The translations under genes and the position numbers were made by a program. Under the pieces are notes generated by a model that worked only from the letters and a program-made list of their open reading frames with translations, did no database searches and was not told the origin of the DNA. Below, one piece after another: positions 47,537 through 49,557 of a DNA stretch of 64,000 nucleotides. How positions within the stretch are numbered: the first letter of the stretch is position 1; each line of letters begins with the position of its first letter. Source of the stretch: Paenibacillus lactis (GTDB lineage Bacteria; Bacillota; Bacilli; Paenibacillales; Paenibacillaceae); the NCBI RefSeq assembly GCF_017873605.1, contig NZ_JAGGKI010000019.1, positions 1-64,000 of the forward strand. Reading direction: 5' to 3'.

Positions 47537-47677
47537 TCATTTCAGCAATTCTTCCGGTGTCTCGCCGCGGTACACAAATAAAGGGCTTGCGGAATTGACA
47601 ACAAACACCGAAACCATCGTCAGGGCCGATGCGACACCGCTATAGAAGCGGTGTTTCGCTTTGCCGATCCGGGACAT
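47537..47677 (-). CDS. agrD: AgrD-like cyclic peptide signal precursor (Ser type)
   Basis: A 46-residue precursor. An N-terminal amphipathic part (MSRIGKAKHRFYSGVAS) precedes a hydrophobic stretch and the signal region SASPLFVY, then the charged C-terminal RGETPEELLK whose P-E-E-L matches the AgrB recognition tail. AgrD precursors normally contain a cysteine for a thiolactone; there is none here. Ser31 would give a lactone, with ring Ser31-Pro-Leu-Phe-Val or one residue longer. Serine-based agr-type peptides are known (Staphylococcus intermedius, Enterococcus Fsr). The ATG follows GGAGGAGG, and the gene overlaps agrB by 38 bases, the usual agrBD arrangement. Confidence 0.78.
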   Translation of the reverse strand: MSRIGKAKHRFYSGVASALTMVSVFVVNSASPLFVYRGETPEELLK

Positions 47678-48206
47678 AAGAGCCTCCTCCTCTCCATTGA
47701 ACTAAACTGACCGCTTGGATGAAAAATACGATCGCTAACGTTGGAGATTGAATCACAATATTCACCGCCACAATCAAACAGCTGATCAGGCGAAGTTTAG
47801 GGTAATGCACGCTGGATATACGGGATTGGTCCTTAATTCGGCTCGGGGCAAAGCGGATGACAAGCAGCAAGCTTGCCAAGTTCAGAAGTTGTATGTATAA
47901 AAGGCCCGGCTCGAGAAAGGACACCAGGGTGAACAATCCGGTTGTCACGGCAATGCATGCGGCTCCGGATTTCAAATGCATCCCTCCCGAGAACTGCCGC
48001 AGGACGGCAAAGCCGATCAGGGATAGAGCCGCCTGCCCCGTATTGCCGGTCAACCATGCGATCAGCATCGTTAGCGATACGATCAGCACCACATTTAACA
48101 CAATGGCAACAGCATGTGCCAAGACGGGGAGAGTCGATTTATGGTCGGGTACTTGTCGTTTGATCCTCTCTGCGATCCGTTTGGCGGTTTCCTCTAACAA
48201 CATGGC
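47640..48206 (-). CDS. agrB: AgrB-like accessory gene regulator protease
   Basis: A 188-residue polytopic membrane peptidase, the length of AgrB (about 189), which cleaves the AgrD C-terminus and forms the cyclic peptide. The catalytic pair is intact: FSGGMHLKSGAAC puts His76 and Cys83 seven residues apart, as His77 and Cys84 in Staphylococcus aureus. About five or six hydrophobic segments follow. Start at 48206 follows GGAGGAGCGG. It overlaps the upstream membrane protein gene by 68 bases and agrD by 38. Confidence 0.88.
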   Translation of the reverse strand, partial: AMLLEETAKRIAERIKRQVPDHKSTLPVLAHAVAIVLNVVLIVSLTMLIAWLTGNTGQAALSLIGFAVLRQFSGGMHLKSGAACIAVTTGLFTLVSFLEPGLLYIQLLNLASLLLVIRFAPSRIKDQSRISSVHYPKLRLISCLIVAVNIVIQSPTLAIVFFIQAVSLVQWRGGGSYVPDRQSETPLL

Positions 48207-48822
48207 GATCCCGCTCCTCCGATTGGATGGCATAGTACAAGAAGATTCCAAAAGTACTGGCAAAGAAAACAAAATGAAGCCACAAATGGTTCAGATAAAA
48301 CAAGATGGCGACCAAGACGAGCACGATCGCGATGAGGACAATCAAGAGAACATGCTCGAATTTCAAACGTGTCCTCTCGATATTAAAATGAAAGCCGATA
48401 CCGAGTTTATACATGACCCAGGCGGCCAACAGTCCTGTTCCTGCACTCAGCACCTGAAGAATGTATCCGTCAACATGATCGGTTTGCACAGTCTCAACCG
48501 AGCCGAATATCAAGGACAAATAGGCAACCTGAATCACGGCATACAGCATGTAACCGATCATCGTGCAAACGGCAGACCAGATGACAGGAATCTTGATAAT
48601 GGTCGAGTATAAGAACAGGAAGATCAGAAGGGTAATTAACGGAACTAGAAAATCCAAATGATACTCATTGCGCAAGATCAGGCTTTGAACATTCGCCAAG
48701 GTCATAACCAGCAGAGCTTGACCCAGGTGCTGGGATATGGGGATCCGCAGCAGGCTCATGATCAGCCAATGAATCGCCAGTGTTTCTAATGTTGAAAAAA
48801 ACATAAATAAGACAGCTTCCAT
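48139..48822 (-). CDS. membrane protein resembling the sensor half of AgrC, no kinase
   Basis: A 227-residue protein with about six or seven hydrophobic segments and a short hydrophilic tail (RHVVRGNRQTDRREDQ). Its layout resembles the N-terminal membrane sensor of AgrC-type histidine kinases. No DHp or ATPase region follows: the frame stops at 48139, and no kinase is encoded downstream. Start at 48822, GGAGG eleven bases upstream. It overlaps agrB by 68 bases, so the three genes form one tightly packed unit. It could be a kinase-less receptor, an export helper or an immunity-type protein; only position and topology support these. Confidence 0.7.
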   Translation of the reverse strand: MEAVLFMFFSTLETLAIHWLIMSLLRIPISQHLGQALLVMTLANVQSLILRNEYHLDFLVPLITLLIFLFLYSTIIKIPVIWSAVCTMIGYMLYAVIQVAYLSLIFGSVETVQTDHVDGYILQVLSAGTGLLAAWVMYKLGIGFHFNIERTRLKFEHVLLIVLIAIVLVLVAILFYLNHLWLHFVFFASTFGIFLYYAIQSEERDRHVVRGNRQTDRREDQTTSTRP

Positions 48823-49557
48823 ACAGGACAATTCCTCCTTGCAGCTTAAGAATGGTTAAATGATTCTACGCCACTCCTCAACCCGAACCCTGGAGCCTGC
48901 CAACAATCCCACCACCGAATTCGTGATGCCGGCTGAAGAAAAGACATGTGGATATCGAATCGAGACGTCACATATGATGCATGTTCTTGAGGCCTATTCC
49001 GGTGGCGACTACCGCTTTCTTAAAAATGCCGGGAATCTCTGATGGAAAGCACAAATCAATAAACATGTATCGATGTTGAAGTTTGGCATAAATGTTAGCT
49101 TGTCCAGAACATATTCCATTGAACTGACCCTGACGACCCTCACTTCATTCACTGTGAAAATCTAAGTATGATTATATAAGGCAATGCTGCAGATTTAACA
49201 GGTAATTTAATACAAATGTGGCGTCAGAAGAGCAATCTGTAGAAATGTATCCCTCTCGGAAGACGAAGAAGATGATTTCGTGAAGGCTGAAACCATGGAG
49301 CGTGAAATGATGTTGGTAAATATAAAAGATGCAAACCGGTTGCAAGAGACTTAGCAGGATATCCTTATACCTATTATACAAGAACATGTGTTCCCATTCA
49401 ATCCTATTCAATCTTTTTGCACGAACAATTTCACATCTGGAAAATACCGTATCTGCACAATAACTACCGCCGAGATGGGCTTCTCGGCTTGCGTTCAGCC
49501 CGGTGGATAGGAGATAGCTTAGTATCGCTTATCCCATTTATCAGTTACGATATAAAG
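48823..49557. other. intergenic, about 730 bases, no gene seen
   Basis: Upstream of the agr unit. A 79-codon minus-strand frame at 49172-49411 lacks a ribosome binding site. The agr promoter must lie near the left end but I could not assign it with confidence. Confidence 0.5.

Follow-up and report, generated by a model that had tools for sequence, protein, structure and literature searches.

A conserved agr variant without a sensor kinase in Paenibacillus lactis and its relatives

The window analysed here, a stretch of 64,000 nucleotides from Paenibacillus lactis, carries a real and conserved variant of the agr system which is undescribed as far as literature searches show. In textbooks the agr system stands for peptide quorum sensing and is described as a two-component phosphorelay; the window's unit comprises an AgrC-type sensor with no kinase, an AgrB and an AgrD, and in most relatives within the genus these are followed by a stand-alone LytTR protein. 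The unit is probably a derived member of a kinase-free agr lineage in which the receptor acts directly on the LytTR protein, the latter having been lost in the window's clade. This reading is built on gene content, homology, conservation, the absence of LytTR and the selection acting on the remaining genes. The features of the locus are as follows.

48139..48822, minus strand: kinase-less membrane protein of AgrC-sensor type (227 aa, seven predicted long helices), kept beside agrB across the genus
47640..48203, minus strand: agrB (187 aa, catalytic His76 and Cys83, Pfam PF04647 at 61.4 bits)
47537..47677, minus strand: agrD (46 aa, cysteine-free, NCBIfam TIGR04223 at 38.1 bits), conserved in the clade
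47573..47587, minus strand: predicted AIP ring Ser31-Pro-Leu-Phe-Val35 (Ser lactone), placed by its distance to PEELLK
48823..48844, minus strand: Shine-Dalgarno-like AAGGAGGAA stretch 5' of the sensor gene, read from the sequence

The preliminary description had proposed three overlapping genes on the minus strand, and its coordinates proved exact. The sensor gene runs from an ATG at 48822 to a stop at 48139, agrB from an ATG at 48203 to a stop at 47640 and agrD from an ATG at 47677 to a stop at 47537, with overlaps of 65 bases between the sensor gene and agrB and 38 bases between agrB and agrD; Shine-Dalgarno-like stretches are found 5' of all three genes alike. The His76 and Cys83 attributed to AgrB are present when counted from the ATG at 48203, and the catalytic His and Cys are kept in all 48 aligned AgrBs. 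The score of the window's AgrB against PF04647 compares with a cut-off of 23 bits, and named relatives of this protein were found in P. lautus, P. rhizosphaerae, P. cellulositrophicus, P. solani and Paenibacillus sp. XY044 (58-60% identity). The 46-codon agrD is likewise real, since its product scores twice the TIGR04223 cut-off of 19 bits, with no match in Pfam. The membrane protein, for which six or seven spans had been suggested, falls below every Pfam and NCBIfam cut-off. Seven long helices were predicted for it by AlphaFold2 (pLDDT 88.5; a model of 228 residues, with one extra residue ahead of the Met), the last helix occupying residues 181-225 of the model, and the gene ends with that helix.

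Profile comparisons relate this membrane protein to the sensor half of AgrC. The sensor-family profile aligned over 218 columns with the sensor halves of 12 AgrC-type kinases (hhalign 97.5%, E 6.4e-12) and also with the sensors of five AgrC-like pseudokinases (98.2%, E 5e-14), these E-values applying to single pairs; the controls gave 1.9% for AgrB (8.8% with the order reversed) and no more than 0.31% for five other hydrophobic clusters. The 12 kinases were drawn from 15 with kinase boxes among 20 loci, with L252, L257 and L258 left out because their matches covered the kinase half only, and nine of the 12 adjoin an AgrB. Against homology stands the AgrC found in the genus itself (L110 type), whose sensor gave no match with the profile (0.1%, from a shallow profile); the relationship emerged only when AgrC kinases of greater diversity were compared. 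A fold search with the sensor model returned nothing significant in the PDB or BFVD. Judged by its sequence, the membrane protein is an AgrC sensor half without the kinase, and the hhalign result of 97.5% supports the earlier suggestion that it resembles this part of AgrC and stops before any kinase.

Within the genus, AgrB was found in 85 of 100 genomes and the sensor protein in 81, frequencies that exceed chance, and a search of Paenibacillus genomes, as had been suggested at the outset, finds the kinase-less gene conserved beside agrBD. The bacterial loci of the genus yielded 149 distinct sensor genes, or 148 after L187 was dropped because its contig ends there; these 148 include two halves of one broken gene (L115) and a 78-aa fragment (L183). 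An AgrB and a downstream LytTR protein of at least 90 aa accompany 121 of them, of which L119, L124, L128 and L170 have short AgrB frames only. The standard unit is composed of sensor, AgrB, AgrD and LytTR. A further 17 copies have AgrB with no LytTR, and two have AgrB with a LytTR fragment (L085 and L030), although in L030, which has undetermined bases and lies in a genome that is 72% complete, the fragment may be an assembly gap. Six copies have LytTR with no AgrB downstream (one of these, L102, has an AgrB upstream), and two have neither. At five loci (L093, L095, L096, L131 and L166) the sensor and LytTR genes are kept without AgrB, separated by 28-217 bases; these are possibly listeners that make no signal. 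Tandem arrangements were also observed, with two units in L099, each with sensor, AgrB and LytTR, and two LytTR genes after one unit in L094.

All of the 145 full-length sensors (at least 190 aa) in the genus lack the kinase, and with lengths of 203-271 aa (median 221) there is no room for one in any of them. Truncation of a normal agrC in the window was thereby ruled out, and no intact agrC was found adjoining these genes in sister genomes. The sensor family extends to 180 of 296 genomes and 34 of 48 genera in a sample of the order, the longest frame among the matches listed being 324 aa. In a sample of the class, 35 of 398 genomes matched the sensor profile, and two of the matching frames exceed 400 aa. 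These two are AgrC-like proteins beside AgrB, and one of them, when used as a query, led to further AgrC-type kinases, four of which were scanned and carry SPOB_a and HATPase domains. Some genomes of the genus also hold a complete agr system with AgrC, AgrA, a Cys-type AgrD and a different AgrB (L110, L111 and L116).

The LytTR protein encoded after AgrD is 108-162 aa long (n=127), or 108-153 aa in the 121 complete units. Four such proteins were scanned with Pfam; all four exceeded the LytTR cut-off and none has a receiver. The gene order in these relatives is sensor first and LytTR last, with the exception of L134, in which the LytTR gene lies about 2.3 kb upstream. The same order of sensor, AgrB, AgrD and fourth gene was also found in the phages Emery and Abouo (Brevibacillus laterosporus) and Paisley (P. 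larvae), each of which has a recombinase or integrase annotated near the unit. The fourth proteins of the phages score 22-37 bits against the family LytTR profile, and with the Pfam LytTR model (cut-off 22.6) the Abouo protein reaches 29.4 bits and that of Emery 19.1, below the cut-off. In Paisley, the frame L138:4675-5031, which is annotated as a dipeptidyl aminopeptidase, matches the family LytTR profile at 22 bits, and the annotation is probably wrong. Two tandem sensor paralogues ahead of AgrB were observed in phage Emery (L137) and in one bacterial locus (L236).

The small peptide genes are widely kept too: 110 distinct AgrDs, of which three are phage-encoded, were found beside kinase-less units, and agrD is thus conserved well outside the window's genome. 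Selection of these AgrDs required a P-x-(E/D)-(L/M) motif close to the end of the frame and at least 22 residues in, so the count covers motif-bearing peptides and motif-less ones are missed. They fall into two types, which were defined by residues and then counted, the informative part being that none of the 110 lies outside both. In type A (54 of 110), a Ser (53) or Cys (1) stands ten residues before the P of P-x-E-L, while type B (56 of 110) has a Lys nine residues before that P and no Cys. The window's AgrD belongs to type A, with Ser31 and the ring region Ser-Pro-Leu-Phe-Val; judging from its spacing to PEELLK, we take this stretch to be in register with the AIP-I ring of S. aureus, which also has five residues. 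Within the window's clade the predicted ring hardly varies. An otherwise Ser-type AgrD in L171 has a natural Cys at exactly the ring position, which supports Ser as the ring nucleophile. The window's AgrD is accordingly marked out by its residues as a predicted precursor of a five-residue Ser lactone, S-P-L-F-V. The absence of cysteine, to which attention had been drawn, is real, but it is not exceptional, given the 53 Ser and one Cys among type A peptides. Ser also occupies the ring place in AgrDs beside scanned AgrC kinases (L247, L248 and L253), and the GBAP of E. faecalis is a Ser lactone joining Ser3 and Met11 (PMC7028047). In the type B AgrDs (L097, L107, L137-L139 and others), an invariant Lys precedes the presumed cleavage site of AgrB by four residues, and nine of the 56 have a ring region without any Ser, Thr or Cys; the type B product could be linear, or else a lactam closed through the Lys.

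The two AgrD types also differ in the boxes upstream of their units, as judged by patterns that were written after the conserved upstream boxes had been inspected. An (A/G)TATAC box ahead of TATAAT was found in 22 of 52 type A units with LytTR (shuffled mean 0.15), and TTGTTG-TATAAT in 44 of 54 type B units (shuffled mean 0.35). Both are absent from the window's clade (0 of 9). The region 5' of the sensor gene in the window (48830-49200) is conserved in the clade without the boxes of its LytTR-bearing relatives.

Units that are related to those of the window but retain a degenerate kinase were found elsewhere in the Bacilli. In five loci (L242-L246), the C-terminal half of the sensor protein is related to the catalytic half of the kinases (E 3.5e-15), but none of the five aligned sequences retains the phospho-accepting His of the RHD box, the N-box Asn or the glycine box; a Pfam scan of three of them gave no kinase domain. 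All five lie beside an AgrB, as in the window, and match the sensor-family profile with HMMER at 17-44 bits. A small peptide with the AgrD motif occurs at four of these loci and an AgrD-like small frame at the fifth. They differ from the window in keeping the degenerate kinase domain, and in that three of the five (L242-L244) have an AgrA-type regulator, in which the phosphorylated Asp lines up; the one regulator scanned consists of a receiver plus LytTR. These kinase-dead AgrCs of other Bacilli are plausible intermediates towards the kinase-less sensor. In a tree of 76 AgrBs, a 99/98 branch separates the 59 from kinase-less units, including three phage copies, from the other 17, which come from 12 AgrC and five pseudokinase units; the tree has no outgroup and contains long rows (L102 the longest), and two joins among the AgrC units may be false, the 99/98 branch not being one of them. 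On this AgrB phylogeny the kinase-less units are one lineage, and the direction of change would have been from kinase to no kinase.

The window's clade comprises nine genomes (G000, G024, G028, G031, G032, G051, G065, G069 and G070), and a LytTR gene beside agrD is absent from all nine, the window included. Genome-wide searches of the clade with the LytTR profile gave at most one weak match per genome (E 8e-6 to 3e-4) and none in G051. A LytTR remnant was sought at E 0.01 in 14 loci and found only in L085 and L133, with none in the window. The LytTR gene would have been lost in this clade, because the relatives have it. A large gene upstream of the sensor is common to seven of the eight long loci of the clade, and most of these have an ABC-transporter gene farther upstream, an arrangement consistent with vertical descent. 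The median dN/dS values in the clade are 0.07 for the sensor, 0.16 for AgrB and 0.06 for AgrD (Nei-Gojobori, overlaps removed, eight of the nine species), as calculated from pairs with dS below 2, which were 20 of 28 for the sensor, 13 of 28 for AgrB and 24 of 28 for AgrD and which share history and are not independent. Sensors in LytTR-bearing units gave 0.04-0.18 from few comparable pairs, and selection is thus not visibly weaker in the clade without LytTR. The sensor, AgrB and AgrD are retained by selection in the window's clade in the absence of LytTR.

The preliminary description had noted neither an agrA nor a complete agrC nearby, which was confirmed, and searches of the window's genome by LytTR, SPOB_a and the AgrC alignment found no candidate for either. 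The genome has one AgrB only. Its two LytTR genes encode receiver-plus-LytTR regulators, distant from the locus and each beside a frame read as LytS-like, and its only SPOB_a match, which lies beside Obg, reads as Spo0B. None of the 65 matches to the AgrC alignment spans both sensor and kinase; apart from the two candidates named below, they cover catalytic positions only, except for C21 (model positions 151-242) and C10:13834, which is Spo0B-like. Among 10 HATPase_c_5 matches, one was scanned with Pfam, seven were judged by the size and ends of their frames and two are without a locus. Two candidates for a distant AgrC kinase were set aside, namely L032, which was ruled out by its HisKA and 5TM-5TMR_LYT domains, and a frame on C36, which reads as having a VanS-like H-box within a VanR/VanS-like pair with a VanZ-like frame adjoining.

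These searches bear on the earlier proposal that the peptide is sensed by a distant AgrC-type kinase. There is precedent for such an arrangement, as VirS lies away from agrBD in C. perfringens. VirS has been reported there as the receptor for an Agr-like signal (PMC7492741), but in the window's genome the search for an AgrC-type SPOB_a kinase found only the Spo0B-like protein, the AgrC alignment found no sensor joined to a kinase and the only two LytTR regulators each have a LytS-like neighbour, so that a distant kinase is now very improbable. The other route proposed earlier, in which the truncated receptor acts in some other way, fits better with the usual neighbour of the sensor, a LytTR protein without a receiver. 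In this favoured mechanism, AgrB would act as a His/Cys protease on AgrD, cleaving it and forming the Ser lactone ring of five residues. The membrane protein would be the AIP receptor, with the seven helices of an AgrC sensor half minus its kinase, and the stand-alone LytTR protein would represent the output half of AgrA minus its receiver. As suggested by gene content, the receptor most likely controls LytTR directly, either by holding it at the membrane or by activating it on AIP binding, and no phosphate would be passed, as in the LytTR regulatory systems. The sensor is kept with LytTR alone at some loci and with AgrB and AgrD alone at others, and is therefore tied to both ends of the pathway, as expected of a receptor. 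The unit of the window's clade should continue to produce its peptide and probably to bind it, and would act through some other partner. It may tentatively be supposed, as something short of an even chance, that across much of the order and in its phages a bare AgrC sensor binds the AIP and directly frees or activates a bare DNA-binding domain of AgrA, with a third and undescribed output in the window's clade.

The membrane protein may instead be no receptor and aid AgrB in the maturation or export of the AIP. To our knowledge the exporter of AIPs is not settled, and it would suit such a helper that the gene overlaps agrB, that it stays with agrB where LytTR is gone (the 17 of 148 copies, plus the two with a LytTR fragment) and that its dN/dS lies below that of AgrB in the window's clade. 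The homology to AgrC sensors, however, argues for a receptor, a pure exporter would not be kept directly beside LytTR at five loci lacking AgrB, and AgrB units elsewhere lack a separate protein of this kind, having a like sensor built into a kinase instead, as seen for nine of the 12 kinases; a role in maturation or export is thus decidedly unlikely. As no output partner was found in the clade, the unit could have a function there other than sensing. It may for instance serve as a signal or interference unit whose peptide jams or cues neighbours, with the sensor kept for self-protection or titration, which would accord with a conserved AgrD in a genome where no stand-alone LytTR, AgrC or AgrA partner was found. 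Competing peptides usually diversify, however, and the near invariance of the predicted ring in the clade makes this explanation unlikely, too. That the locus is a decaying remnant, in which the loss of LytTR is being followed by that of the other genes, is the least probable of these possibilities; LytTR is indeed absent from the window, with remnants in the relatives L085 and L133, and AgrB is short or missing elsewhere (L119, L124, L128 and L087), but the three open frames and the low dN/dS over eight species speak against decay.

The agrBDCA systems (agr in S. aureus and fsr in E. faecalis) share with the window the His and Cys of AgrB, the PEELL-type C-terminal motif of AgrD and an AgrC-type sensor, and the LytTR output domain is common to them and the relatives of the window. 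The window's lineage differs in having no kinase on the sensor and no receiver on the LytTR protein, in the order sensor-AgrB-AgrD-LytTR and in a Ser as ring residue, and the window itself differs further in having no LytTR. A second likeness is to the LytTR regulatory systems HdrRM and BrsRM, which according to the text consulted (PMC6193735) combine a receiver-less LytTR regulator with a membrane protein without an enzyme domain, as the relatives of the window do. There the regulator gene lies upstream of that of the inhibitor (PMC6193735), whereas in the relatives the sensor is first and AgrB and AgrD lie between; the window, again, lacks the LytTR gene which those systems have. Nor do the direct repeats of the LytTR regulatory systems stand out upstream of the relatives' units. 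Repeats of 9 bp, about 12 bp apart and just before a -35 box, were sought, and a pair matching at 8 of 9 positions with the right spacing was found in 8 of 58 upstream regions, at scattered positions.

In the phages Davies, Emery and Abouo, AgrB, AgrD and AgrC-like membrane proteins lacking the ATPase have been noticed before (PMC3901668), and these cassettes are like the window in belonging to the same lineage, with a kinase-less sensor, AgrB and AgrD. In the portions consulted, that paper names neither a LytTR fourth gene nor a bacterial counterpart, both of which were found in the present analysis, and two further papers mention phage AgrB by name only (PMC4909266 and PMC4168068). AgrB or cyclic-lactone clusters have emerged from genome mining of Paenibacillus sp. 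lzh-N1 (PMC10938842) and Brevibacillus (PMC9867215), in texts where, as far as consulted, 'AgrC' and 'LytTR' respectively are absent. The consulted text of PMC6193735 contains neither 'agrB' nor 'Paenibacillus', and no link to agr was found in it. Searches on Paenibacillus agr, kinase-less AgrC, LytTR with AgrB and phage cassettes gave no title describing the four-gene kinase-free unit among the matches listed, many subscription papers lying outside their scope; among those matches, the nearest literature is PMC3901668 and PMC6193735.

If the proposed mechanism is true, there exists a large lineage with the signal and the sensor of agr, minus the kinase and the receiver, and the AgrC sensor can signal alone. 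We know of no defined peptide ligand for any LytTR regulatory system, and these systems would then gain a defined chemical ligand. They have been put forward as a potential new class of sensory system (PMC6193735). The lineage would also offer a natural experiment, with LytTR kept without AgrB in some loci and AgrB and AgrD kept without LytTR in others, and the output of the unit in the window's clade would be its most interesting part.
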